A stretch of 64,000 bases of DNA from positions 102,124-166,123 of the forward strand of contig NZ_JAOTIF010000012.1 in assembly GCF_025628885.1 (NCBI RefSeq), read 5' to 3'. Below are positions 34,617-56,093 of this stretch, in pieces (the first letter of the stretch is position 1; each line of letters opens with the position of its first letter). Source of the DNA: Paraflavisolibacter caeni (GTDB lineage: Bacteria > Bacteroidota > Bacteroidia > Chitinophagales > Chitinophagaceae). Made by a program: the position numbers and the translations under genes. The notes beneath the pieces are model-generated. The model worked only from the letters and a program-made list of their open reading frames with translations, was not told the origin of the DNA and made no database searches.

Positions 34617-35063
34617 TTACAATTCCGCCCTGGTCCAGACCTCTGTCCGTCCTACAAGTGCTATTCCGATGTACCCTCTGACTTTCATAGTATTTTTGTC
34701 TTTTAGTGAAAGGTAGCAGCTATAAGTTTTGCCGCTTTCTGGATCATATATCCTGCCATTTTCCCACTCATCGCGTCCATCGAATTGAAATTCCCTCATT
34801 ATTACCATACCCGTTACTGGCTGGTTGCGCTTGTTTTTGTCCGGATTTTTTGTATCCAGCTTTGGCTTGCCGTTGTTTGTTGGATATTTCAGCCAAACAA
34901 TTTTACCATAATATTTTTCACCGGTCCTGTATATCCTAATTTTTGTGGGCTCATTACCCACCGTCATCCAAACCCCTATAATGTCATCGGCCTTCACTTG
35001 CCCACAGGTGCTGTTATTTAAGGAAAACATGAGGAGCACAAGTATTGTCAGACTCTTTCTCAT
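34617..35063 (-). CDS. DUF2147 exported protein
   Basis: 148 residues from the Met at 35063, which begins a signal peptide (RKSLTILVLLMFSLNNSTCGQ, possibly lipid-modified at the Cys). The DUF2147 body shows DDIIGVWMTVGNEPTKIRIY, GEKYYGKIVWLKYP, NGRIYDPESGKTYSCYLSL and GYIGIALVGRTEVWTR. The function of the family is unknown; it is a small periplasmic beta-rich domain. Its start lies 50 bp inside the end of the upstream sterol-desaturase-like gene on the same strand, so the two are probably translationally coupled. Confidence 0.82.
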   Translation of the reverse strand: MRKSLTILVLLMFSLNNSTCGQVKADDIIGVWMTVGNEPTKIRIYRTGEKYYGKIVWLKYPTNNGKPKLDTKNPDKNKRNQPVTGMVIMREFQFDGRDEWENGRIYDPESGKTYSCYLSLKDKNTMKVRGYIGIALVGRTEVWTRAEL

Positions 35064-35841
35064 TATTTTGGGTTTTAGTGTTATCTGTTTTCTTTCTGGA
35101 ACAAACCTCTTCAAACCTCTGATCGTATTCCTGGTTTAGTGTTCCCATTATCCGGTCCCAGATTGTAAAATAAATTCCGTAATTGCCCTTAAAATACTTG
35201 TGGTGCATGTTGTGCGCTACTGAGGTGTTTATCCACTTTCCCAACCAATGTTTGCTGAATCCTTTGGGATACAGTTCAAATCCTAGATGTCCGTACACAT
35301 TATAAATCAAGCTGAACAGGAAAAACAGCATTAAATGAATACTGTGTACCGGAATGGTAAATAAGAAAATGACGAAGATGAGAGATTCCAGGGCTGCTTC
35401 CAAAGGGTGGAAGGCGTAAGCAGCCCAGGGAGAGGGATTATGGGATCGATGATGCACCAGATGGATTCGTTTAAACAATTTTGGATGGTGCATAAGCCTG
35501 TGCGCCCAGTAAAAATAGGTGTCGTGCAGCAAAAGCATTAGTGGGAAAGCCAAAAGGGCATAAAGCCACCCATACTCCGATAGGTCTGAATAGAAAGTAG
35601 TATAAGGCTTTAAAGGAGTATAGAGTAACAACAGTGGAGGAAAAGAGAAAATGATAATGGAAAGGGTAGAGAAAAATATTTCCCTTTGGTAATCGGTCCG
35701 TTTTGGGAAGGTAATTTGAATCTTTTTATAGCTGATCCTTTTTTTTAAAAGCACATAAAAGATCAAAAAAGCGGGTCCAGCAATAAGGAAATATTTATCT
35801 GCATTATCCAACAATAACCAGGTGAATTTTTCCCAATTCAT
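35014..35841 (-). CDS. Fatty acid hydroxylase / sterol desaturase family protein
   Basis: 275 residues with about four to five membrane segments and the complete diiron histidine set: HDTYFYWAHRLMHH, HLVHHRSHN and HNMHHKYF. This superfamily inserts oxygen or double bonds into fatty acids, sphingolipids, sterols or carotenoids. The lysine-rich C-terminal tail after MGTLNQEYDQRFEEV is longer than the core needs and is overlapped by the DUF2147 gene. A Crp-type regulator lies 67 bp upstream on the same strand. A role in membrane lipid adjustment is likely, with the substrate unknown. Confidence 0.85.
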   Translation of the reverse strand: MNWEKFTWLLLDNADKYFLIAGPAFLIFYVLLKKRISYKKIQITFPKRTDYQREIFFSTLSIIIFSFPPLLLLYTPLKPYTTFYSDLSEYGWLYALLAFPLMLLLHDTYFYWAHRLMHHPKLFKRIHLVHHRSHNPSPWAAYAFHPLEAALESLIFVIFLFTIPVHSIHLMLFFLFSLIYNVYGHLGFELYPKGFSKHWLGKWINTSVAHNMHHKYFKGNYGIYFTIWDRIMGTLNQEYDQRFEEVCSRKKTDNTKTQNNEKESDNTCAPHVFLK

Positions 35842-35908: not shown

Positions 35909-36484
35909 TTATTTACTGGCCAGCCTTTTTCGCAAACGGCTCAGGCTCGGCGCTTCAATTCCCAGATAGCCGGCAATGTACTTTAAAGGGATACGGTTAA
36001 ACGCATTGGGATAGTCCTTTAAAAAGTTCAGGTATCTTGTTTCTAAAGACTGTATTTTACTAGCTTGTTCTGTCAGCAAAACAATTCTAAGTTCTTCAGC
36101 CAGGATTTGGGTAAACAGTGTTTCAAACTTTGCATTCAAAGAAAAGATCAGGGGCAGTTTTTCTTTACTCAACATCAGCATTTCGCAATCTTCGAGGGCG
36201 ATGAAGTTTTTATGCGAGGGGACATGTTGGCTGATGCCTTCAGTATAGGTAAAAAAGCAACCTTCGAACGTGAAATTGGAAGCAATCTCTTTGCCTTCAC
36301 TAAGTATGGTGCCAACAATAAGTCCTGAATTCAAAAAGCCAATAAACCGGCAGTATTCACCGATCTTAATTAAGTAATCACCCTTTTTATATTGCCGTAC
36401 AGAGCTGTAGCCAAATGCTTTCTCTAAATCCTCTTCGGGAATCTGAATTCTTTGATTAATATACTCTTTTACTTTGGCGAACAT
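35909..36484 (-). CDS. Crp/Fnr-family transcriptional regulator
   Basis: 191 residues. An N-terminal cyclic-nucleotide-binding-like barrel (about 25-115: YKKGDYLIKIGEYCRFIGFLNSG, FEGCFFTYTEG) is followed by the dimer helix and a short winged helix-turn-helix (IPLKYIAGYLGIEAPSLSRLRKRL). The phosphate-binding Arg-Ala signature for cAMP is not obvious and no Fnr-type Cys cluster is present, so the effector is unknown. Such stand-alone Crp proteins are common next to single enzyme genes in Bacteroidota. It probably controls the downstream sterol-desaturase-like and DUF2147 genes. Confidence 0.87.
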   Translation of the reverse strand: MFAKVKEYINQRIQIPEEDLEKAFGYSSVRQYKKGDYLIKIGEYCRFIGFLNSGLIVGTILSEGKEIASNFTFEGCFFTYTEGISQHVPSHKNFIALEDCEMLMLSKEKLPLIFSLNAKFETLFTQILAEELRIVLLTEQASKIQSLETRYLNFLKDYPNAFNRIPLKYIAGYLGIEAPSLSRLRKRLASK

Positions 36485-36509: not shown

Positions 36510-36704
36510 TCAATGCTGAAGAAAAAGTGCTACTTTAAATGAGACACTATTGGATTGATTCCTCCCTTTATGTGGTTCGTTGCACTCTAATAAATGTGCT
36601 TCCGCATTGTAGCTAACGGTCAATTCCTTTTTTTCATCTGTGTCAATAGTCTTAATCATTTGCTCCTCATTCTTACAGGAAAAAATTAATGTATCCTTCT
36701 GCAT
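36510..36704 (-). CDS. Possible small protein of unknown function
   Basis: 64 codons whose ATG (36704) overlaps the last 19 bases of the upstream methyltransferase gene on the same strand, a layout that suits translational coupling. The sequence (MQKDTLIFSCKNEEQ..., ending SFKVALFLQH) has no recognised family, signal or membrane segment. It may be a chance frame in the 200-bp gap before the Crp-type gene. Confidence 0.3.
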   Translation of the reverse strand: MQKDTLIFSCKNEEQMIKTIDTDEKKELTVSYNAEAHLLECNEPHKGRNQSNSVSFKVALFLQH

Positions 36705-37339
36705 ATGATGTATGAATCTCCATGTTGTAGGACCTCTTCGTATTTGTCAGGTGCGAGACCTTCATAATAATACAGAACTTCAAAATCTGAAAAAACTTCA
36801 CGAAGTCTATTTTTCTCAATGTAATATCTGATCTTACAGCAGTCTTCCTTTTTCCGGAAAGTATTAGGCTCAATCATTGCCTCTGTAGAAATATAATCGG
36901 TAAATTCCGGATCAAGATAATTTCGTAAGGACATAATAATAATACCTGCCGGTTTCACTGTGCGTTTAAGACAATGTAACAAGTATTCAAAATCACTTCG
37001 CCTCATACAGCAGCCTACAAGCAAACAGTTGATTACATCATAAAAATTCTGGCTATAATGGTATCTTATTACATTCCCATTCCTTACTGAAATATTTATA
37101 AGCCTGTTATCTTTTACATATGCACGCAAACGGCCTAAATAATCCTTATTATTGTCTATGGATGTAACTTGGAACCCTTGCCTGGCAAAGAATACACTGT
37201 CTGCACCTTCCCCGCAACCGACGTCAAGTAAACGTTTTCCATCATTTAGATAATGTAAAGCCTTTATGGCCAAAGGATCTGGTTTAAAAGGATTTTCAAA
37301 TCCGTATTTAGTGCTTAATTGAGACGTTGAATAGCTCAT
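36686..37339 (-). CDS. Class I SAM-dependent methyltransferase (TehB-like)
   Basis: 217 residues. The SAM-binding motif LLDVGCGEGADSVFFARQGFQVTSID (first block GCGEG) is followed by the acidic end of strand 2 and later motifs NVIRYHYSQNFYDVINCLLV and LKRTVKPAGIIIMSL. This layout resembles TehB/Tam-type small-molecule methyltransferases, which act on tellurite, selenite, thiols or small acids. The Cys-rich NCLLVGCCM stretch is unusual. It lies 200 bp downstream of the DsbD-alpha gene on the same strand and may or may not be in that operon. Confidence 0.82.
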   Translation of the reverse strand: MSYSTSQLSTKYGFENPFKPDPLAIKALHYLNDGKRLLDVGCGEGADSVFFARQGFQVTSIDNNKDYLGRLRAYVKDNRLINISVRNGNVIRYHYSQNFYDVINCLLVGCCMRRSDFEYLLHCLKRTVKPAGIIIMSLRNYLDPEFTDYISTEAMIEPNTFRKKEDCCKIRYYIEKNRLREVFSDFEVLYYYEGLAPDKYEEVLQHGDSYIICRRIH

Positions 37340-37540
37340 CTTCCTAATTTGCCAGTTAATATTTTATAAAGAAGCAATCAGGCTTTCAAGCCGATTGATC
37401 AATTGGCGGTCATTAGTATTTGTTGAAAGTTGCATGATTTTTGATTTCAGCAATTGTTCAAATTCAATTCTTTCGAAACACGAAGGGCTTAAGCTTCCCT
37501 AATAAGCCCTTTTTAGAAGTATCTTCAATAAGAATAATTG

Positions 37541-38002
37541 TTATTTTACTTCCACCTGAATTGAAAACTCAATTGTTTTCGGCATAAGACACCTTTGGTT
37601 ATCGCATGCCTGATAATTAAGTTTTGCCTGGAGCACATGCCTTTGCCTTTGAATGTTTCTATTTGTTTGTACCGTAATAATTATTGAAAAAACACCATCA
37701 TAAACATCTAAATATGTGTTCGTTCCTTCCAATTGAAATTTGTTAGCCGGAGGAAATACTGTTCTTTCAACTCTTATCCCCTCATAAGTCTTTATTTCGA
37801 GCGTTGTTGGTATAATAAATTCGTCTTTGGTTTTATTAGCCTGAATGTGATAACCATTTTTTACTTCTAATTCAACTTTGATTAAAGAACGTTTACCTGC
37901 ATAAACAATAGCTTCCGGCACCTTGACTTTTACAATATCAGAAACTGTCTGATGTCCCCAAAAAAGTTGAATCGGCAATATGAAAATCCACAAATAAGCC
38001 AT
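37541..38002 (-). CDS. Free-standing DsbD alpha-domain-like periplasmic protein
   Basis: 153 residues with an N-terminal hydrophobic signal (about 2-16), then an immunoglobulin-like domain ending in LNYQACDNQRCLMPKTIEF. That CxxxxxC pair is the redox pair of the N-terminal alpha domain of DsbD, which passes electrons to periplasmic thiol proteins. The membrane core and thioredoxin-like gamma domain of DsbD are absent, so it must take electrons from another partner. The start is two bases after the TlpA stop, so the two are co-translated. Confidence 0.75.
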   Translation of the reverse strand: MAYLWIFILPIQLFWGHQTVSDIVKVKVPEAIVYAGKRSLIKVELEVKNGYHIQANKTKDEFIIPTTLEIKTYEGIRVERTVFPPANKFQLEGTNTYLDVYDGVFSIIITVQTNRNIQRQRHVLQAKLNYQACDNQRCLMPKTIEFSIQVEVK

Positions 38003-38004
38003 AT

Positions 38005-38559
38005 TTATTTTTCATTGCTTAATAGTTCATCTAATTCCTGTTTCAACTTGACCAGCTTTGCATCAAAATTGGTTGTATTGAGTAGCGAATAAAACCGGAT
38101 CTTGCTCTCTTTATCAATGATCAGGTTGGAGGCAATAGGCACTTCATGTCTTGCAAGGTCTGGCTGAACACCTTCAGGTGCATACTTCGTGGAGATAGCG
38201 CCGTTTTCGTCAAGTAAGACCGGAAAGCTAAAATTGAACCGTTGAAGCCACTTTTCTATCAAGTCTCTATCCTCCTTTATATCTATGATCAGCACTTGTA
38301 CACCCTTGTCCCTGTAAGCTTGATGAAGTTGTTCCAGATAAGGAGCCTCTGCATTACAAAATGGACACCAAGTGGTTGCAAAATGTATGACAACATATTT
38401 CCCTTTCAGTTGTTCGAGGGAATATGTTTTTCCATCAAGGCCAGTAAGTGTAAAAGCAGGCGCAATCTGCCCTATCATGGGTTGCTCCTGCTGTGCGTAA
38501 ACTAAGTTTGGTAAGCAGGTTAAGACTATCCAATAAAGTGAGAAAAGTAGTGTTTTCAT
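38005..38559 (-). CDS. TlpA/ResA-type thiol-disulfide oxidoreductase
   Basis: 184 residues with a signal peptide (about 1-22, ending VYAQ) and a thioredoxin fold: PMIGQIAPAFTLTGLDGKTYSL, the active site ATTWCPFCNAEAP (CPFC) and the cis-Pro segment EVPIASNLIID. It reduces disulfides in the periplasm, classically for cytochrome maturation or thiol repair. Its ATG overlaps the stop of the ArsM-like methyltransferase by four bases and its stop is two bases from the DsbD-alpha gene, so all three form one operon. Confidence 0.9.
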   Translation of the reverse strand: MKTLLFSLYWIVLTCLPNLVYAQQEQPMIGQIAPAFTLTGLDGKTYSLEQLKGKYVVIHFATTWCPFCNAEAPYLEQLHQAYRDKGVQVLIIDIKEDRDLIEKWLQRFNFSFPVLLDENGAISTKYAPEGVQPDLARHEVPIASNLIIDKESKIRFYSLLNTTNFDAKLVKLKQELDELLSNEK

Positions 38560-39347
38560 GAATTTCTTTTTTTTATTGCCAATAGAGAAATACTTTTTAC
38601 ACCAAATTGTTGTGAAGCTCCTTTTGCAGATTGGGATAAAAAATGATAGGGCGGGTTGTTTCTGATTTGCGCCAACTGGAATCCATTATTTTCTATTGCG
38701 CTTCTATATTGATCTTTTTGGCTGGCTCCTCCTATACAGGAAGCCCAAAAAGTGGTATTGCTCACAACTGCTGCCGGCAGTTGCTTTTCGCTAATGATAT
38801 CCGCAATTGCCATACGCCCACCGGGTTTTAACACTCGAGCCGCCTCTGCAAACACTTGTTCTTTTTGGGCGCTCAGGTTAATTACCCCATTGCTAATCAC
38901 CACATCAACACTTTGGTTGGGAAAAGGAAGCTGTTCAATATAACCTTTGTAAAAAGAAACATTTTCAAAGCCGGTTTCTTTGCGCAACCGTTCTGCCTTA
39001 TCCAACTGTTCTTCGGTCATATCCACACCCCACACCTGGCCCGTCTTTCCGGTTCTCAAAGCAGCGATAAATACATCCGTACCCGATCCGCTGCCTAGGT
39101 CAAGCACTGTTTCACCTTCTTTGATAGCAGCTAAATCAAAAAAATAGCCTACACCGGCAAAGGATTCTACTGCTGCAGTAGGAATTCGTTCTAAGTCTAT
39201 TAAAAGATAACCAAGATTTTCTGCCAGCTTCCGGCCTATGGAAAAATGGTATTCTTTTTCTGGATGCAGAGCTACATCCCGATACATGCTTTTTACTTTT
39301 TGCTCCAGATCCGTAGTATCGAATTGTTTGTTCTTGGTTGATTCCAT
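38556..39347 (-). CDS. ArsM-like SAM-dependent methyltransferase lacking the usual second Cys
   Basis: 263 residues from the Met at 39347; an upstream Met at 39452 adds an unrelated basic stretch and is rejected. The SAM site is VLDLGSGSGTDVFIAA with VWGVDMTEEQLDKA, then PFPNQSVDVVISNGVINLS, RVLKPGGRMAIADII and FWASCIGGASQ. The whole layout matches arsenite methyltransferases, but the position where ArsM has the As-binding Cys (ISNCVINLS) is Gly154; only Cys204 remains of the C-terminal pair. Canonical arsenite methylation is therefore doubtful. It is divergent from an ArsR-rhodanese gene with a 287-bp shared control region, and is followed in one operon by TlpA and DsbD-alpha. Confidence 0.8.
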   Translation of the reverse strand: MESTKNKQFDTTDLEQKVKSMYRDVALHPEKEYHFSIGRKLAENLGYLLIDLERIPTAAVESFAGVGYFFDLAAIKEGETVLDLGSGSGTDVFIAALRTGKTGQVWGVDMTEEQLDKAERLRKETGFENVSFYKGYIEQLPFPNQSVDVVISNGVINLSAQKEQVFAEAARVLKPGGRMAIADIISEKQLPAAVVSNTTFWASCIGGASQKDQYRSAIENNGFQLAQIRNNPPYHFLSQSAKGASQQFGVKSISLLAIKKRNS

Positions 39348-39572
39348 ATTAATAATTGGGGAGTGTTTATTAAAAAGACGCAAAGCCTTATAAAAAAGTT
39401 CCTGTAATCTAATGGGGCAGTTCTTGATCAGTTTAAATATGGGTATCTCCATTAGCTACTCATCCCAATGCGCTTTAGTCATGAAACAATTATTAATACT
39501 TGTTTTCCTTCATTGTTTATTTGCGTTAGCTGTTATCTTAACAAAAATTTGCTGAGGTATTCTTTTAAAACT

Positions 39573-39600
39573 ATTCAATAATTATATTTAATAGTTGAAT
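39573..39600. promoter_or_regulatory. Imperfect AT-rich palindrome, likely ArsR-type operator
   Basis: ATTCAATAATT and AATAGTTGAAT are nearly reverse complements (9 of 11) and sit just ahead of the -7 box of the arsR-rhodanese gene. Size and AT content suit ArsR-family operators. Confidence 0.5.
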
Positions 39601-39608
39601 CGTTTATC

Positions 39609-39616
39609 TATATTTG
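39609..39616 (+). promoter_or_regulatory. -7 element TATATTTG of the arsR-rhodanese operon
   Basis: Exact TAnnTTTG match. Transcription would start about ten bases before ATG 39635, which also supports that start over the in-frame ATG at 39614 that lies inside the box. Confidence 0.65.
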
Positions 39617-39634
39617 TATTGCAAAACATTGGTT

Positions 39635-40303
39635 ATGGACAAAAGGGAGTTTAAAGACAAGGTATATTCTGTGCTATCGCAAATGGTGAAAGCTATGGCC
39701 AACCCACACCGCCTGGAAATTATAGACCTACTGGGTCAGGGTGAACGGTCAGTAGAGGAAATCGCTAGAGAAACAAATCTCTCTGTTGCCAATGCTTCTC
39801 AGCACCTCCAGGTACTCAGGCAATCAAACTTGTTACAAGTAAAGCGGAAAGGCAATTTTATATACTACAGTCTGGCAGGCGACAATGTATACAAATCCTG
39901 GAAAGACCTTAGAGAAATCGGCTTGGAAAGCTTGGCTGAAATTGATAAGCTGATTAAGGATTTCCGTATACAAAAAAGCAGTTTGGAAGCCATAAGTTTT
40001 GATGAATTGATGACAAGGATGAAGTCGGGGAAGACCATTCTCCTGGACGTACGGCCAGAAGTGGAATTTAATTCTGGACATATTCCCGGTGCTGTCAATA
40101 TACCAATTGAACAATTTTTAGATCGTACAGAAAAATTAAGTAAATCGAAACAATACATCGTCTATTGTCGTGGTCCTTTTTGTGTCTTTGCAGACGAAGC
40201 AGTACAGATCCTTTCTCAAGAAGGTTTTAAAGCAAAGCGTTTACAGGAAGGTTTCCCGGATTGGAAAGCTAATGGACTTCCAGTTTCCTCTATTCAAAAC
40301 TAA
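39635..40303 (+). CDS. ArsR-family regulator fused to a rhodanese domain
   Basis: 222 residues. The ArsR winged helix covers about 8-95 (ANPHRLEIIDLLGQGERSVEEIA, recognition helix SVANASQHLQVLRQ, wing VKRKGNFIYYSL). A rhodanese domain covers about 115-218 (ILLDVRPEVEFNSGHIPGAVNIP, active loop YCRGPFC, GFPDWKANGLPV). The DNA-binding half has no cysteine at all, so it lacks both the ELCVC-type metal site of ArsR and the two-Cys sensor of BigR/SqrR. The only cysteines are C178 (predicted catalytic) and C183 in the rhodanese loop, so that loop is the natural sensor, perhaps by persulfidation (inference). It lies 16 bp ahead of the rhodanese-MBL gene. Confidence 0.92.
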   Translation: MDKREFKDKVYSVLSQMVKAMANPHRLEIIDLLGQGERSVEEIARETNLSVANASQHLQVLRQSNLLQVKRKGNFIYYSLAGDNVYKSWKDLREIGLESLAEIDKLIKDFRIQKSSLEAISFDELMTRMKSGKTILLDVRPEVEFNSGHIPGAVNIPIEQFLDRTEKLSKSKQYIVYCRGPFCVFADEAVQILSQEGFKAKRLQEGFPDWKANGLPVSSIQN

Positions 40304-40319
40304 TAAAATTCATTAAATA

Positions 40320-41426
40320 ATGAATAGTACACCCCTTATCTCCACAGATTTATTAAGGCAAATGCTCAACAAAGGAGAACCCGTCAATGTTATAGATATT
40401 CGACCCATGCAGGAAAGAGCAGAATGGATGATACCAGGAAGTATTCATATAGATGCCTATCATCGGGTAAAGCAGCATGATGCATCCGTTTTTGAGGTTG
40501 TTCATCTTGACAAATCTGTGCCTGTTGTTACCGTTTGTGCAGGAGGTAAAGCAAGTTTAGTAGCAGCCGATATGCTTCGCCAGAGAGGTTATAACGCTTT
40601 TTCATTGCAAGATGGCATGAAGGGATGGAGCCTTGCCTGGAATACAGCCTACAAACAATATGAAGGCTTTGAATTGTGGCAAGTCAGACGCACAGGCAAA
40701 GGCTGCTTATCCTATATTATTGCATCAAACAAAGAAGCTGTCATCATTGATGCTTCCCTTCCTGTTGAGGTATATACTCAATTAGTTAATCAGCATCACC
40801 TCACAGTAAAGTATGTGCTGGAAACCCACATCCATGCCGACCACCTTTCCAGGTCAAGAGAAGTAGCAGCGCATTTTAAAGCGCCGTTGTTTCTGCCGGT
40901 CCCCAATAAAGTGCAGTTTGCTTTTAATCCAATTAAGGAGAATAACACTTTTTTTATTGGTAAATTGGTAATTCAATCTTTACCTACTCCTGGCCATACT
41001 TTGGACAGTTTCAGTTTCTATATTGCTGATAAAATAATATTTACTGGCGATACACTTTTTACTAATGGAGTAGGGCGCCCCGATCTGAAAGCAAACCCTG
41101 AAGAAACCAGGGAAAAAGCAAGGCTTTTATACCATTCATTAAATAAATTGCTTGCACTGCCTGATAGTGTCATTGTACTTCCAGCCCATACCAGTCAACC
41201 AGTGAGTTTTGATGATATGCTCGTGCAAACCACTATAGATGAAGCCAGGAAGAATATTGCACTATTGCAAAGCAGGGAAGAAGAGTTTATCAATTCACTA
41301 CTAAAAAAAATACCTGACACACCACCTAATTTCCTTTCCATCGCAGAGAAAAATCTTTTGGGCAACTATGAAGGTATTAATCCAATTGATCTGGAAGCAG
41401 GTGCTAACCGTTGTGCTGTTTCCTGA
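40320..41426 (+). CDS. Rhodanese - metallo-beta-lactamase fusion (persulfide dioxygenase-like)
   Basis: 368 residues. N-terminal rhodanese domain (about 1-110) with VNVIDIRPMQERAEWMIPGS and active Cys73 in VTVCAGGKAS. The MBL-fold domain (about 116-330) has metal ligands H170, H172, D174 and H175 (ETHIHADHLS), H226 (PTPGHTLDS), D244 (FTGDTLF) and H290 (PAHT), and the GVGRPDL segment seen in ETHE1-type persulfide dioxygenases. Known relatives oxidise glutathione persulfide or pass sulfane sulfur from the dioxygenase to sulfite. Fusion order (rhodanese first) differs from CstB-like proteins. It is cytosolic and belongs to the operon with the ArsR-rhodanese gene. Confidence 0.88.
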   Translation: MNSTPLISTDLLRQMLNKGEPVNVIDIRPMQERAEWMIPGSIHIDAYHRVKQHDASVFEVVHLDKSVPVVTVCAGGKASLVAADMLRQRGYNAFSLQDGMKGWSLAWNTAYKQYEGFELWQVRRTGKGCLSYIIASNKEAVIIDASLPVEVYTQLVNQHHLTVKYVLETHIHADHLSRSREVAAHFKAPLFLPVPNKVQFAFNPIKENNTFFIGKLVIQSLPTPGHTLDSFSFYIADKIIFTGDTLFTNGVGRPDLKANPEETREKARLLYHSLNKLLALPDSVIVLPAHTSQPVSFDDMLVQTTIDEARKNIALLQSREEEFINSLLKKIPDTPPNFLSIAEKNLLGNYEGINPIDLEAGANRCAVS

Positions 41427-41479
41427 TCATAATTGCATTAATACAACACTTATTTAATCAAAAAAAATCAAAGCTCTAA

Positions 41480-41938
41480 ATGAACTCTTTAAGTAAGAAA
41501 ACAATCCGAATCCTTTCATGTGCCTTAGTTATGGCAATATTTATTGTTGCAACAGCTTTTGCACAATTTCAAGATGAACCCTGGAAACCAGAGCAACTTA
41601 TGGCTCCCAGCGTGTTGGCTGAAATGATCAATAAACCCGGTAGTGAGCTCCCGCTCATTATTAGTGTGGGCCCTGCTGGTCTAATAAAAGGTTCTGTAGA
41701 AGCCGGGCCAACGAGTGAAAAACAAAATTTAAAAAAGTTAGAAAAATTGCTTGCAAATGAAAGCAAAAGCAGAAGTATCGTTCTTTACTGCGGATGCTGT
41801 CCTTTCATAAATTGCCCTAATATCCGTCCCGCCTTTTCACTGCTCAATAAAATGGGATTCACCAAACATAAGCTACTGAACTTATCTCGTAATGTAAAAG
41901 CTGATTGGATAGACAAAGGTTATCCGGTAAATAAATAA
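41480..41938 (+). CDS. Exported Cys-rich rhodanese-like protein
   Basis: 152 residues with a signal peptide (about 1-29, ending TAFAQ). The body has rhodanese-like order: an N-terminal helix-strand part (PSVLAEMI...LPLIISVGPAGLIKGSVEAG), then SRSIVLYCGCCPFINCPNIRPAF where the catalytic loop lies, then a terminal WIDKGYPVNK like the rhodanese GWxxxGYPV end. The loop holds four cysteines (C104, C106, C107, C112) instead of one, suggesting disulfide, persulfide or metal chemistry in the periplasm. It lies in the same operon, 53 bp after the rhodanese-MBL gene. Substrate unknown. Confidence 0.75.
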   Translation: MNSLSKKTIRILSCALVMAIFIVATAFAQFQDEPWKPEQLMAPSVLAEMINKPGSELPLIISVGPAGLIKGSVEAGPTSEKQNLKKLEKLLANESKSRSIVLYCGCCPFINCPNIRPAFSLLNKMGFTKHKLLNLSRNVKADWIDKGYPVNK

Positions 41939-42017
41939 TACGGAATGGATGCTAAAAATAGAATAACCAACAATGTCTTTGAATGGTTTTGGTAATACAT
42001 TTTGAAAAGTCGTAAGC

Positions 42018-43259
42018 ATGAAAGAGATACAACTTGGACTAAAAGAGAATTGGAAACAATTTACATTGCTTGTAATCATTAATTCTTTTGTCGGCGGTAT
42101 GGTAGGTTTGGAAAGAAGCATCCTCCCAAAAATTGCAGAGGTAGAATTTCATATTGCAGCCAAAACAGCCATCCTTTCATTCATTGTAGTATTTGGCATT
42201 GTTAAAGCCGTTGCTAATTATTTTACAGGAGCGTTAGCTAATAAAGTCGGAAGAAAAAACCTCCTTATAATTGGTTGGCTCTTTGGCATTCCTGTTCCTT
42301 TTATCTTAATGTTTGCTGAGAACTGGAACTGGATCGTTGCCGCTAATGTTTTACTAGGGATTAACCAAGGGCTAGCGTGGAGCTGCACTGTGGTTATGAA
42401 AATAGATCTCGTTGGCGAAAAGCAAAGAGGATTTGCAATGGGCTTGAATGAATTCGCCGGTTACCTGGCTGTAGCTGTTGTTGCTTTTTTGACTGGTTGG
42501 ATCGCTTCTGAGTATGGCCTGCGTCCCTATCCTTTTTATATCGGTGTAGTCTTGTCATTAATGGGTTTCTTTGGAAGCTTGCTATTGGTAAAGGATACAA
42601 AGCACCACGTTGCTGCAGAAACCGGCAGTAGTAAGATACCAAGACTCAATAACATTTTCTGGCAGACAACCTGGAGGGATAAAAACCTAGGCTCCGTTAC
42701 ACAGGCTGGGCTTATCAACAACCTTAATGATGGGATGACTTGGGGAATCTTTCCAATTTTATTAGCCTCAAAGGGCTTTTCACTTGAACAAATTGGCATC
42801 GTAACAGCCATCTATCCTGCAGTTTGGGGTGTAGGTCAGTTGTTTACCGGCACGATGGCTGATCTTTTCTGTAAAAGAAATATGCTATTCCTTGGCATGC
42901 TGCTACAGGGTATTGTTTTGATAGCTTTATTATTTGCCACAACCATGTTTCATTTTATAGCACTTTCTATACTGCTAGGTTGGGGAACAGCAATGGTGTA
43001 TCCAACCTTTTTAGCCACTGTTGCTGAAAACACACATCCCCAGGATCGCGCAAAAAGCCTGGGCATATTTCGTCTTTGGAGGGACTTGGGCTATGCCATT
43101 GGTGCTATTCTTACAGGTATTATAGCTGACACCTTAGGGCTCTCAGCTTCTATTTTAATTATTGGATTATTAACAATAGCTTCAGCCATGATTATCTTTT
43201 ACCGTATGAAATGCTTTAACCCTGCATCTCTGCATAGCGGTAAACCAATCATTGCATAG
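42018..43259 (+). CDS. Major facilitator superfamily transporter
   Basis: 413 residues with about twelve membrane helices. MFS markers are GALANKVGRKNLLIIGWLFG between helices 2 and 3, the matching GTMADLFCKRNMLFLGMLL in the second half, and the charged loop DLVGEKQRGFAMGLNEFAGY. It resembles export-type members, with no substrate-specific motif recognised. It closes the operon of ArsR-rhodanese, rhodanese-MBL and exported rhodanese genes, 79 bp after the last. By context it may move a sulfur-containing or metalloid compound. A hairpin terminator follows. Confidence 0.88.
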   Translation: MKEIQLGLKENWKQFTLLVIINSFVGGMVGLERSILPKIAEVEFHIAAKTAILSFIVVFGIVKAVANYFTGALANKVGRKNLLIIGWLFGIPVPFILMFAENWNWIVAANVLLGINQGLAWSCTVVMKIDLVGEKQRGFAMGLNEFAGYLAVAVVAFLTGWIASEYGLRPYPFYIGVVLSLMGFFGSLLLVKDTKHHVAAETGSSKIPRLNNIFWQTTWRDKNLGSVTQAGLINNLNDGMTWGIFPILLASKGFSLEQIGIVTAIYPAVWGVGQLFTGTMADLFCKRNMLFLGMLLQGIVLIALLFATTMFHFIALSILLGWGTAMVYPTFLATVAENTHPQDRAKSLGIFRLWRDLGYAIGAILTGIIADTLGLSASILIIGLLTIASAMIIFYRMKCFNPASLHSGKPIIA

Positions 43260-43266
43260 TTGAAAT

Positions 43267-43298
43267 AAAAGAGCATCGCTGCAATGTGACGCTCTTTT
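43267..43298 (+). terminator. Intrinsic terminator after the MFS gene
   Basis: AAAAGAGCATC - loop - GACGCTCTTTT, an 11-bp stem with one G-T pair and a T-tract. It ends the sulfur operon and also serves the convergent gene at 43338. Confidence 0.75.
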
Positions 43299-52502: not shown

Positions 52503-55500
52503 TTATTGATACCAATTGATTGTTTTGCCAATAGTAAAATTGTAAATAGCTCCGTCCTCATTTTTACCAATACTTGCAGAAAGGAAGAACTTCTGATATG
52601 GGAAAAGGTAAATACCTGCGCCATAAGCAGTGTGCCATAATTGCGAGGAGGTATGTTTCGTCCACACTCTGCCTATATCACCGAAGCCCAATAGGCCAAA
52701 GTCGCCCGATAAAAGAAAGGAGTGGAGTGAAGCTGCTTTATAACGAAGTTCCATGCTGCTGTAAAGAAGTGAGTTACCTGTAAATCGGTAGTTTCTAAAT
52801 CCCCGCAGGTTATTTTCAGTGCCTAGGCCAAGTGCCTGGTAAAAATCATATTGCTCACTGAAAATATGCCCGCCACCTACTTTTATCAATGTCACCAATC
52901 TTGATGTATCAATCAGGGGCGAAGCAAGCAAGATATGTGATTGCAGTCGTGCATAAATTGGACTATTGTTTTTCTGCATATTTCTATAGCAGGTGAATTC
53001 GTTTTTCCAGCTTAGGCCTTGTGTGGGGAATAACAGGTTATCCATGTGGTTTACATTCAACAGTACCCTTCCCCCAATATATAGCTTAGTTTCATACATT
53101 GAAGAGGAATCCATTCCAATGTAATCTGGAGACTCTGCTAGCCATTTGCTGTTTTCTTTTGAATTGTTCCAGTAGTAGTAGGCACTAGGGCCAAAGGAAA
53201 AATTGAACTGGTCAAAGTAGTTTTTTGTAACCAACAGATCTACTGCAGCATAGTTGTACTTAATTCTGTAATAAGAAAATGCTTTGTTCTTGTCCTTCTT
53301 AGTTTCATTGCCTATTCCATAAAAGTTTTGAATAGCATTCTTCTGTATTTCACCAGTTGTCAACAAACCCGTTGCAAACCTCCAGCCGTTTAGGATGTTA
53401 GATAATTTTATTCCATAGGAGTTTTGTGATGGTGCATAATGGATGGAAACAGAAGTTTCAGAAGCAAAAGGTTCACGACGGAAATCATATGTCTTTTTAT
53501 TCGCTCCTATGCCAATTTGCAACCCATATTCAGAATTAGCAGCTAGTGAGAATACTGGAAATTGGCCTTTATCTTGATAGGTATAACTATTCAGTTTATA
53601 TTCATTAATTGTGGGGTGATTGCTCATCCTGTTGCGAGTGCTTCTTCCACGGGACAATATATTAGCCTCCGAAGATCTGTCATAAATAAAGTTTTTGCCT
53701 GTACCATTTACTACAAATGTATCCTGTCCTCCTCCACCAACGATGCGTAGGGGAATACTTTTCTGGACCGAACTATCCACCATAAAGTAATCATTTCCAT
53801 TTAGTCCATATAAACGAATCTCCCTCGTAATGGAAGGATCAAAGCTCCTGTAATAGGTAAGCATTGTAGTATCACCTTTCTTCCGTTCATATACCTTTAT
53901 CTGTAGAATATGATTCTTCTGAGCAACTTGAAAATAGTCATTTTGATTACTACCTAAGATATTCACCTGCTCTGAAATGGCTCTATAAAGCTCAAGAGCC
54001 CTTTCCTTCAAAACATTACGTCGGCTTTTTAGTTTTTCCTCTAAATCCTCACCTCGGATGGCGTAGATTTCCGGAGGTAGTTGCTGTACAGACTTTTCTA
54101 TAGCCTGGTCTGTCAAATCATTTTGAAACTTATTTATTACTTGCTTCCATTGTTCTTCGTCCAGGGTATTTAAAAAGGTATGGTCAAATTCATCTGCACT
54201 AAATCCCAGGCCAACAGCATTAGACAGGTCTTTTGTAAAGCCTCTGAAAAGAGATAAATTTTTTCGTGCTAACATGCGAACCAGCAGCCCATCAGAATTA
54301 AAATAAGCGGCATCCCTGTCGTTTGGCACCGGCTCAAATAATTTTCCATTACCTGTATCTTTCCATCCCCAGGTCCATTGTTCCAGGTGTCGGTCAAAAT
54401 CTCCTGTAAGAATATCCAGGAGTCTTGCTCTTAAAACAGATTGCTGATTTACTACATGATCAGCTTTTTCTGTTATACTATTGAGAATGTCATAGCTTCC
54501 TTTAGTGTCTTTATAAGGATAAGGATCTTTTTCTACCAGCATCACCACCTTATTGGCAAATAATGGTCTGTAAAAGCCAAAAGCAGTATCATTAGGCACA
54601 AAGAAGTATTGAGGCTGGGCCTCTGTTACACCAGTGTATTGCGCAATTGCTGCATTCACAAGGGCTCCATATGGATGCTGAGCTGACATATAATCTTTAA
54701 CGAGGCGCTTCGTCAAACCACTTCTTAATGATACCGGTAAAAACTCAACAGGATCTTTATCCACGGTGCGCAACTTGTATCCTCGTCCATTTGCATCTTC
54801 TAGGTGAAGCGATTTACTTTGCTTTCCGCCACCTAATTTTTTGATTGTTAATCCCCCGTTTACTTTTCCAATATCAAATAGAGGTAATAGTATGGGAGTT
54901 TCCCATTCTTTACGATAGTTTTCACCTATCAATTGTTTTTGCAACTTCGTGGGCTTGCTATATTGTAAACTGGCAGCCACCTTTATATTGTCCTGTACCA
55001 GAGGCATCCACTTTGTTGTTGTATCTTTTAGTGCAGGCAGTTTTGAAAAATCATGAATATGCTGTTGGAAGACTAAAGTTGCCTGCTCTCCCTTTATTTC
55101 ATAGAAGCAGAATTTCGCTTTTTGTTTATTATCAACCTCAATGACAGCAAATCCCTTTGATGGACTCGTAAACAAGGATTCTCTACGCCTGGATACACGG
55201 CTGGTCTTACTTGCGCTACCTGATACTATATAAGTGAGTGTTTTATCTTTTAATAGCTGAAGATTTTCTTCATGGCCGCTTATATATACAATATTAGGAT
55301 GAACAGACAGCGTTTTCTTAAGATCGTTAATCATGCTTTCATATGTTGCATTCATAAGGTCCTGCACATTTGGGAAAGCATTTCGAATTATTGGGTAGAT
55401 GGATCCTGCTAATGGTAAGGGAAGATATAAACCGGGACTAAGATCCGTTAAGGGAAACAAATGTTGCTTGAGATCATAACTTCCACCATGGATGCCATTG

Positions 55501-56093
55501 CTCTTCAAAGGATGGTGTGCCGCAATCAAAACTAGTTTGTTGTAATTTTTGCGCAGAATGCTCCCAAGCTCATCATAAACTTGTCTCTTTGATTTGGTCG
55601 GACATCCCGATTCAATATCTGGTTTTTGATACTGGTGAAGCCACCATTGAGTATTTAGGACGATTAAAACTACATCGTCGCTCAGTTTGATTTCTTCAGG
55701 TCCCGGACAACCATCTTTGGGGAGGAAACTTATATTTTTGCATCCTACATTTTCAATATAAGATTGCATCAAAATAACGGAATCCAAACCCGCTTTGCCA
55801 CCTCCGCTCCATTCTTTCTCTCCCGGGATAAACACAGCAGATGCATCACTCTTCTTGATCATTGCCGCTATAGCCTTTACCTGATAAATATCATTATCTC
55901 CAAGAAAGAGTAGGGCTGTTTTTTGATTCAGAGGCACCTTTTCTCTAATAGCTTTAAAGAGTGCTTGTGGGGGCGGACTTCCATACTGCACCCCTCCGAT
56001 TAATACGATCCTGTTTATGATTGAATCTTTACTGAACTGAGTAAACGCGATTAAAGATTTTAAACAAATAAAGATAAAGAGCGCAAATCTCAT
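52503..56093 (-). CDS. Metallophosphoesterase - kinase-like - outer-membrane barrel protein
   Basis: 1196 residues. Signal peptide (about 1-18). A calcineurin-like phosphoesterase domain (about 25-320) has FLGDNDIYQ, NTQWW, AAHHPLKSNG and ISGHEEN; the first Asp-x-His motif is degenerate (VLIGGVQYG). The middle (about 380-800) contains LLDILTGDFDRHLEQWTW and FEPVPNDRDAAYF, a DRH...DRD pattern like HipA/Fam20-type kinase folds, then repeats of YRSFDPSITREIRLYGLNGNDYF type. The last ~370 residues form a BamA/Omp85-like surface-antigen barrel (GLGTENNLRGFRNYRFTGNSLLYSSMELRY, ending IGKTINWYQ). It should sit in the outer membrane with the enzymatic parts on one side. Role unknown. Confidence 0.82.
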   Translation of the reverse strand: MRFALFIFICLKSLIAFTQFSKDSIINRIVLIGGVQYGSPPPQALFKAIREKVPLNQKTALLFLGDNDIYQVKAIAAMIKKSDASAVFIPGEKEWSGGGKAGLDSVILMQSYIENVGCKNISFLPKDGCPGPEEIKLSDDVVLIVLNTQWWLHQYQKPDIESGCPTKSKRQVYDELGSILRKNYNKLVLIAAHHPLKSNGIHGGSYDLKQHLFPLTDLSPGLYLPLPLAGSIYPIIRNAFPNVQDLMNATYESMINDLKKTLSVHPNIVYISGHEENLQLLKDKTLTYIVSGSASKTSRVSRRRESLFTSPSKGFAVIEVDNKQKAKFCFYEIKGEQATLVFQQHIHDFSKLPALKDTTTKWMPLVQDNIKVAASLQYSKPTKLQKQLIGENYRKEWETPILLPLFDIGKVNGGLTIKKLGGGKQSKSLHLEDANGRGYKLRTVDKDPVEFLPVSLRSGLTKRLVKDYMSAQHPYGALVNAAIAQYTGVTEAQPQYFFVPNDTAFGFYRPLFANKVVMLVEKDPYPYKDTKGSYDILNSITEKADHVVNQQSVLRARLLDILTGDFDRHLEQWTWGWKDTGNGKLFEPVPNDRDAAYFNSDGLLVRMLARKNLSLFRGFTKDLSNAVGLGFSADEFDHTFLNTLDEEQWKQVINKFQNDLTDQAIEKSVQQLPPEIYAIRGEDLEEKLKSRRNVLKERALELYRAISEQVNILGSNQNDYFQVAQKNHILQIKVYERKKGDTTMLTYYRSFDPSITREIRLYGLNGNDYFMVDSSVQKSIPLRIVGGGGQDTFVVNGTGKNFIYDRSSEANILSRGRSTRNRMSNHPTINEYKLNSYTYQDKGQFPVFSLAANSEYGLQIGIGANKKTYDFRREPFASETSVSIHYAPSQNSYGIKLSNILNGWRFATGLLTTGEIQKNAIQNFYGIGNETKKDKNKAFSYYRIKYNYAAVDLLVTKNYFDQFNFSFGPSAYYYWNNSKENSKWLAESPDYIGMDSSSMYETKLYIGGRVLLNVNHMDNLLFPTQGLSWKNEFTCYRNMQKNNSPIYARLQSHILLASPLIDTSRLVTLIKVGGGHIFSEQYDFYQALGLGTENNLRGFRNYRFTGNSLLYSSMELRYKAASLHSFLLSGDFGLLGFGDIGRVWTKHTSSQLWHTAYGAGIYLFPYQKFFLSASIGKNEDGAIYNFTIGKTINWYQ

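Follow-up and report, generated by a model that had tools for sequence, protein, structure and literature searches.

We investigated a gene cluster of Paraflavisolibacter caeni (positions 36686..43298 of a 64,000-nucleotide stretch of its genome, hereafter the window), in which two arms diverge from a single intergenic region, the right arm on the plus strand and the left arm on the minus strand. The right arm includes the gene for an ArsR-type regulator fused to a rhodanese domain. We consider that the cluster is probably (roughly 60%) a local sulfane-sulfur response controlled by this rhodanese-fused ArsR repressor, judging from the sequence comparisons described here. Sulfur is favored because proteins resembling sulfide:quinone oxidoreductase (SQR), DsrE and persulfide dioxygenase (PDO) are among the partners of the fusion. 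In addition, the grouping exceeds chance, since the partner genes are again found next to the fusion in other genera and have a palindrome in common; the conservation of this palindrome between the arms is an argument for one signal to both of them.

The original prediction, made from the sequence of the window alone, had proposed one response across both arms. Every gene that it named was located by Pfam, NCBIfam and reading of the open reading frames (ORFs), a terminator-like hairpin closes the right arm (Table 1), and the conserved neighborhood on which it had staked the grouping was found. What holds of the single response is a sulfur-type regulator with cytosolic, periplasmic, methylation and transport parts and a palindrome between the arms; the inclusion of a TehB-like methyltransferase does not hold. 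As to substrates, sulfane sulfur or sulfide is favored, and thioarsenic compounds are disfavored at the window locus.

The fusion regulator and its predicted operator

The winged-helix ArsR domain of the fusion was confirmed, with HTH_5, HTH_20 and NF033788 all above their cut-offs. The only cysteines of the window's protein are C178 and C183, both in the rhodanese loop (CRGPFC). Among 120 fusion proteins (the nearest among the matches listed, including the window's own), both cysteines were kept in all 120 and CRGPFC as such in 112; any other alignment column contained cysteine in at most 3 proteins, and residues 1–110 were free of cysteine in 115. The cysteine pair in helices 2 and 5 that marks the SqrR/BigR class was not conserved in these 120 aligned proteins, and the fusion did not reach the BigR model NF040642 (42.8 bits versus 155). 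Its ArsR domain, being devoid of cysteine, has no CxC arsenic site. As no other cysteine is conserved, any sensing of sulfane sulfur by the fusion would go through the fused rhodanese; the known chemistry of rhodanese loops is sulfur transfer. We found no description of an ArsR-rhodanese sensor of this combination in the openly licensed papers that were searched, which is no proof of its absence.

We compared 22 fusion loci, namely the window, 17 other places in the family (inspected over about 9 kb per side, less at contig ends) and 4 among 80 loci of the exported CGCCPF protein described below (L036, L038, L042 and L060), with 2 duplicates dropped. The consensus of the palindrome, derived from the sequences that precede the fusion at the loci inspected first, is TCTATTCAAT-N6-ATTGAATAGA, with a final T also common. 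In the window, a palindrome of this kind (TCTATTCAAT-N6-ATTGAATAGT) lies at 39570-39595 as ACTATTCAATAATTATATTTAATAGT, which agrees with the consensus at 17 of 20 positions, whereas the best score in 200 shuffles of a 460-bp region of the window was 15. When 113 loci (2.08 Mb) were scanned at a threshold of 16/20 or more, 25 of the 26 sites fell at fusion loci, and the 90 fusion-free loci contributed the remaining one (L071). All 22 fusion loci had the palindrome, always preceding module genes. Where the fusion sits downstream of the CGCCPF gene, the site precedes the latter (L038, L060, L166-L169), and additional sites lie ahead of the rhodanese-metallo-beta-lactamase (MBL) gene in L167 and of the major facilitator superfamily (MFS) gene in L168; in L170, the site lies ahead of the MFS gene, and the one ahead of the fusion itself reaches only 15/20. 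Divergent genes flank the palindrome in the window and at six other loci, encoding TlpA (L160, L163 and L164), an ArsM-like protein (L162), FA_hydroxylase (L161) or a methyltransferase (L175).

Twenty-two other genomes, 21 of them with the fusion, were scanned whole: all sites with at most one mismatch were at the fusion locus, and three sites with two mismatches lay elsewhere, the same number as given by a reversed-pattern control. Genome G102, in which an ArsR gene without rhodanese sits beside a CGCCPF gene, had no site anywhere. In the window's genome, the sole site with at most one mismatch was the one between the arms; when up to three mismatches were allowed, 9 sites were counted, and the reversed pattern gave 4. 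The window contains another palindrome (53311-53336), which is internal to an ORF (52503-56093) and was taken as chance. The half-sites carried about 1.5 bits of information per column and the spacer 0.78, compared with 0.12 and 0.24 for the flanks. A TAnnTTTG box, which we take to be the Bacteroidota -7 promoter consensus, was found within 39 bp downstream of 19 of the 24 sites. The palindrome is predicted to be the operator of a local autorepressor.

Composition of the fusion neighborhood

Across the 22 fusion loci, the operon of the fusion or its divergent partner encoded an MFS transporter (15 loci), the CGCCPF protein (13), TlpA (10), a methyltransferase (10), the rhodanese-MBL protein (8), DsbD-alpha (3) and a divergent ArsM-like protein (2). 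The MFS relatives were 51-88% identical to the nearest reference member, which was not always the window's. On the side of the left arm, L160 and L163 have TlpA and then DsbD-alpha genes divergent from the fusion (DsbD-alpha relatives at 33-37%), L164 a TlpA gene alone, and L162 an ArsM-like gene 65% identical to the window's; L163, which is the same locus as L046, has an MFS protein 80% identical to the window's and a divergent TlpA copy 66% identical. The presence of these divergent genes shows that the left arm is not fortuitous. In L042, the operon further includes a DsrE gene and one for an SQR-like flavoprotein with FCSD_central above the Pfam cut-off; by eye, SQR-like and DsrE-like sequences were also recognized in L173, and in L171 a sequence resembling DsrE.

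The rhodanese-MBL protein appears from its sequence to resemble a persulfide dioxygenase of the MBL fold: its matches in the PDB were PDO-like chains (4ysb, 4chl (ETHE1), 5ve3 (BpPRF) and 3tp9), and the HxHxDH metal motif is present as THIHADH. Its rhodanese domain is N-terminal, unlike that of BpPRF, which is C-terminal. The methyltransferase slot varies between loci, being filled by the ArsM-like type, by a type of about 213 amino acids (aa) or, in L162, by two other types; this variety suggests that what the loci have in common is a small substrate and not a single enzyme family.

Coordinates are collected in Table 1. The ORF of the fusion as listed begins at a TTG at 39614, and the gene was taken as 39635-40303. 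The TlpA and ArsM-like genes overlap by 4 bp; for the latter, comparison with the 260-aa relative in L162 favors a start at 39347 over that at 39452. The TehB-like gene, about 200 bp beyond the DsbD-alpha gene, scored 43.9 against the Pfam TehB cut-off of 20.4 and fell far below those of the NCBIfam TehB models (48.8/218, 46.5/303 and 30.9/219.5). It was rejected as a module member, as it was not the best reference match for any gene of the 21 other fusion loci.

Two further neighbors recur. FA_hydroxylase was found near the fusion at 5 of 22 loci (the window, L159, L160, L161 and L162), and a Crp-type regulator at 4 of the 21 others (L159, L160 and L162, and in L163 as a partial match of 77 aa). 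Both occur together at 3 of 21 (L159, L160 and L162), and in L161 the FA_hydroxylase gene alone diverges from the fusion across the palindrome. This recurrence may link a sulfur response to lipid hydroxylation.

Table 1. Features of the cluster and its surroundings, in positions of the window
Feature	Position	Strand	Evidence
ArsR-rhodanese fusion regulator, 222 aa	39635..40303	+	Pfam HTH_5/HTH_20 and Rhodanese above cut-off
Rhodanese-MBL protein, persulfide-dioxygenase-like	40320..41426	+	Pfam Rhodanese and Lactamase_B
Exported CGCCPF-family protein, predicted rhodanese fold	41480..41938	+	No Pfam match; AlphaFold2 (AF2) model, best PDB match rhodanese
MFS transporter	42018..43259	+	Pfam MFS_1
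Terminator-like hairpin ending in TTTT, 3' of MFS	43267..43298	+	Fold -14.7 kcal/mol, z -2.75
ArsM-like S-adenosylmethionine (SAM) methyltransferase	38556..39452	-	NF008823 232.6 bits, under 263 cut-off
TlpA/ResA-like exported thioredoxin, WCPFC motif	38005..38559	-	Pfam AhpC-TSA/Redoxin
DsbD alpha-domain protein on its own, Cys pair C133/C138	37541..38002	-	Pfam DsbD_N 33.2 bits
TehB-like methyltransferase	36686..37339	-	Above Pfam TehB cut-off
Crp-type regulator, occasional module neighbor	35909..36484	-	Pfam cNMP_binding
FA_hydroxylase family protein, occasional module neighbor	35014..35841	-	Pfam FA_hydroxylase
Predicted operator palindrome ACTATTCAATAATTATATTTAATAGT between divergent arms	39570..39595		17/20 consensus positions
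TATATTTG, predicted -7 promoter box	39609..39616	+	Fits TAnnTTTG

The CGCCPF protein family

The loop of the exported protein in the right arm is YCGCCPFINCPN, and the family pattern is YCGCCPFxxCPN(I/V)RPAF. The protein had no Pfam match, a PDB sequence search returned only two chance matches to a cilia protein (best E 0.13), and a plasmid search matched nothing. With the AF2 model (pLDDT 89.8, pTM 0.76), the best PDB match in Foldseek was the rhodanese 3ilm (TMt 0.73, 20% identity), and hhalign aligned C104 to C178 of the fusion (E 1e-4, probability 57%). A rhodanese fold with the active-cysteine loop following a strand is predicted from the model. The loop residues are invariant or nearly so: in 62 aligned sequences, three further loop cysteines were invariant and C104 itself was kept in at least 90%.

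Including the window's own, 673 proteins matched the CGCCPF protein, and in a set of genomes with a single representative per species, 468 confirmed stretches encoded a relative; the best 80 loci of these 468 were kept for the analysis of neighborhoods. In 14 of the 80 loci, all from Dyadobacter (L010, L012, L022, L026, L028, L029, L031, L034, L043, L044, L049, L056, L064 and L073), the CGCCPF gene adjoins SelD, and 12 of these 14 have MnmH too, in several gene orders. This neighborhood suggests a selenium role for the exported CGCCPF rhodanese in Dyadobacter. In a family sample of 181 genomes, 44 encoded CGCCPF and 133 SelD; in genus g273 (presumably Dyadobacter), 22 of the 25 genomes with CGCCPF also encoded SelD, and the pair lay within 2 kb in 20 of the 22. 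Genus g41 of the same family had CGCCPF beside SelD in none of its 17 CGCCPF genomes. Genome G365, from another family, carries an MnmH-SelD-methyltransferase-CGCCPF set twice on the same contig, about 46 kb apart (L176 and L177), and a similar 349-aa exported protein follows each set, directly in L176 and behind a 415-aa protein in L177.

A different association was observed in L069 (8570-12300), where genes for ArsR (bearing, by eye, a CIC motif), ArsM, CGCCPF, TlpA and MFS stand in a row. The ArsM scores 354.3 on NF008823 (cut-off 263) and the MFS protein is 77% identical to the window's; this locus is an arsenic-looking sister of the module. Because CGCCPF occurs with the fusion, with the arsenic-looking ArsR and ArsM of L069 and with SelD/MnmH, the family looks like a general periplasmic chalcogen carrier under differing controls.

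Other regulators were also seen beside CGCCPF genes. Crp-type regulators occur in L023, L072, L083 and, by eye, L009; in the first three, a different Crp-type regulator of 187 aa replaces the fusion ahead of rhodanese-MBL, CGCCPF, a methyltransferase (in L083) and MFS. Stand-alone ArsR proteins of 106-108 aa lie near CGCCPF and a 117-aa DsrE-like protein in L033, L059, L061 and L178; by eye, they have C14 and a cysteine near position 84 in common, possibly a dithiol sensor of another layout.

Competing readings and known systems

If the cluster is a sulfane-sulfur response, we infer that the fusion binds the palindrome, represses both divergent arms and senses persulfide via C178/C183; it would let go of the DNA when persulfide loads these loop cysteines, which is the boldest step. 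The rhodanese-MBL protein would oxidize persulfide to sulfite in the cytosol, while the exported CGCCPF rhodanese would take up periplasmic sulfane sulfur and pass it on to be reduced by TlpA and the DsbD-alpha protein. Sulfide or some other small thiol may be capped by the methyltransferase, and a product may be exported by the MFS transporter, these two roles being the least certain.

Several observations weigh against the sulfane-sulfur response. The full-length fusion (E below 1e-40) is patchy, occurring in 18 of the family's 394 genomes, the window's among them, and in 12 of 101 genera; within the genus, it was present in 1 of 18 genomes, the window's own, and the others had partial ArsR or rhodanese matches. 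CGCCPF is patchy as well (16 of 392 genomes of the phylum sample), and the module is loose in composition. There is no SQR in 36686..43298, a 35% relative of the SQR-like protein of L042 being encoded elsewhere in the genome (G000:C1:613127-614161), and the L042 protein itself scores 234 bits versus the 525 cut-off of the type III model NF049943. The right half of the window's palindrome deviates from the consensus at one position, and the palindrome counts include the pre-fusion sites from which the consensus was derived, those before CGCCPF, MFS and rhodanese-MBL not having been used in deriving it. We found no single clade of fusion-linked proteins on the CGCCPF tree: the label "near fusion or stand-alone relative of its ArsR", which covered 17 rows (4 of them stand-alone ArsR), was scattered (15 changes; shuffled mean, 16.0). 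Moreover, in L069, relatives of the CGCCPF, TlpA and MFS proteins are encoded behind an ArsR with the CIC motif and an ArsM of full score.

The last point bears on an arsenic or thioarsenical resistance locus, in which the ArsM-like protein would methylate As(III) and the MFS transporter would export methylated arsenic. The ArsM-like protein reaches 232.6 bits on NF008823, and the row of L069, with its ArsM over the cut-off, would fit; however, the ArsR domain of the fusion lacks cysteine and hence a CxC site. At the positions of CmArsM C72, C174 and C224, moreover, the ArsM-like protein has V, G and C, so that one of three arsenic cysteines is kept, and the L162 copy lacks the same two (by eye). 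At least three of four cysteines were required according to an excerpt of PMC5552862, whereas an excerpt of PMC8649762 describes a Thermus ArsM that works with a single cysteine. Because of the latter, we regard arsenic activity of the ArsM-like protein as unlikely rather than excluded, and an arsenic locus as quite improbable. Alternatively, the loop cysteines might form a plain disulfide under oxidants, which would make the fusion a thiol or peroxide redox sensor and the cluster a repair system for oxidized thiols, not sulfane sulfur. Two conserved cysteines five residues apart, together with TlpA and DsbD-alpha as thiol-reductant families, are consistent with this, but the pair sits in a rhodanese loop, known for sulfur transfer, and sulfur enzymes are found among the partners (persulfide-dioxygenase-like, SQR-like and DsrE proteins); such a sensor is therefore unlikely.

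Selenium or tellurium, also among the candidates of the original prediction, would make CGCCPF and TlpA reductants or carriers of selenium, which the methyltransferases would volatilize. The closeness of CGCCPF to SelD in genus g273, the two sets in G365 and the weak resemblance of the CGCCPF loop to the CxU selenoprotein rhodanese family (NF041203; 17 bits, not reaching the cut-off of 115) point that way for the protein family. For the window, we hold this to be a poor prospect: SelD or MnmH occurred at 0 of 22 fusion loci in the stretches inspected, the lack of SelD in 3 of 25 CGCCPF genomes of g273 and the 0 of 17 in g41 speak against it, and selenium use by P. caeni was rejected, with neither SelD nor MnmH over cut-off in its genome. 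Finally, the two arms could be unrelated neighbors by accident, as left-arm genes are rarely found with the fusion (DsbD-alpha at 3 and divergent ArsM-like at 2 of 22 loci), but at four other loci, from four genera, the fusion and a divergent TlpA or ArsM-like gene have the palindrome in common, which makes an accident highly improbable.

The sulfane-sulfur reading leads to a wider claim, which we put forward tentatively and would not be surprised to see fail: the fusion may represent a new sensor class, in which an ArsR that has lost all cysteines of its own monitors, via CRGPFC, the loading of the rhodanese joined to it and heads a swappable chalcogen-defense module of Bacteroidota, whose signature CGCCPF protein also feeds selenium use beside SelD and MnmH in other genera. 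In described ArsR persulfide repressors, the cysteines are in the DNA-binding domain (PMC10509353), whereas the fusion conserves a pair only in its enzyme-like domain. The palindrome offers a ready reporter and a regulon open to test. A likely context is also obtained for two groups that had none, the exported CGCCPF rhodaneses and the methyltransferases that resemble ArsM without its arsenic cysteines.

Among known systems, the closest are the ArsR persulfide repressors SqrR, BigR, SoxR/sHdrR and HlyU, whose neighbors include persulfide dioxygenase, rhodanese, SQR and transporters (excerpts of PMC12423496, PMC10509353 and PMC7315123) and which sense via a cysteine pair in helices 2 and 5 (PMC10509353; two conserved cysteines also in PMC12423496). 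The fusion is like this class in its ArsR winged helix and in the sulfur-oxidation and transport genes beside it, behind a predicted operator, and unlike it in lacking the helix 2/5 cysteines and having its pair only in the fused rhodanese loop. The ArsR network of PMC10509353, as its excerpt states, excluded sequences of more than 150 residues, so the 222-aa fusions fall outside it. The bigR operon, in which BigR occurs with Blh, a sulfur transferase/dioxygenase (excerpt of PMC5823870), likewise sets an ArsR-type repressor beside a rhodanese and a dioxygenase, but the window's rhodanese-MBL protein scores 69 bits on the Blh model versus a cut-off of 625. MddH, MddM1 and MddM2 are UbiE/UbiG-type SAM methyltransferases acting on H2S and methanethiol and proposed as H2S detoxifiers (excerpt of PMC12904073); the ArsM-like protein is nearest to ArsM models. 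The Tso set (TsoR and TsoB) and the CxU rhodanese NF041203 provide named models for an ArsR-type regulator and for rhodanese- and DsbD-like proteins (NCBIfam; excerpt of PMC13188914), but the window scores far below their cut-offs (56.8/115, 50.7/805 and 17/115) and its proteins contain no selenocysteine.

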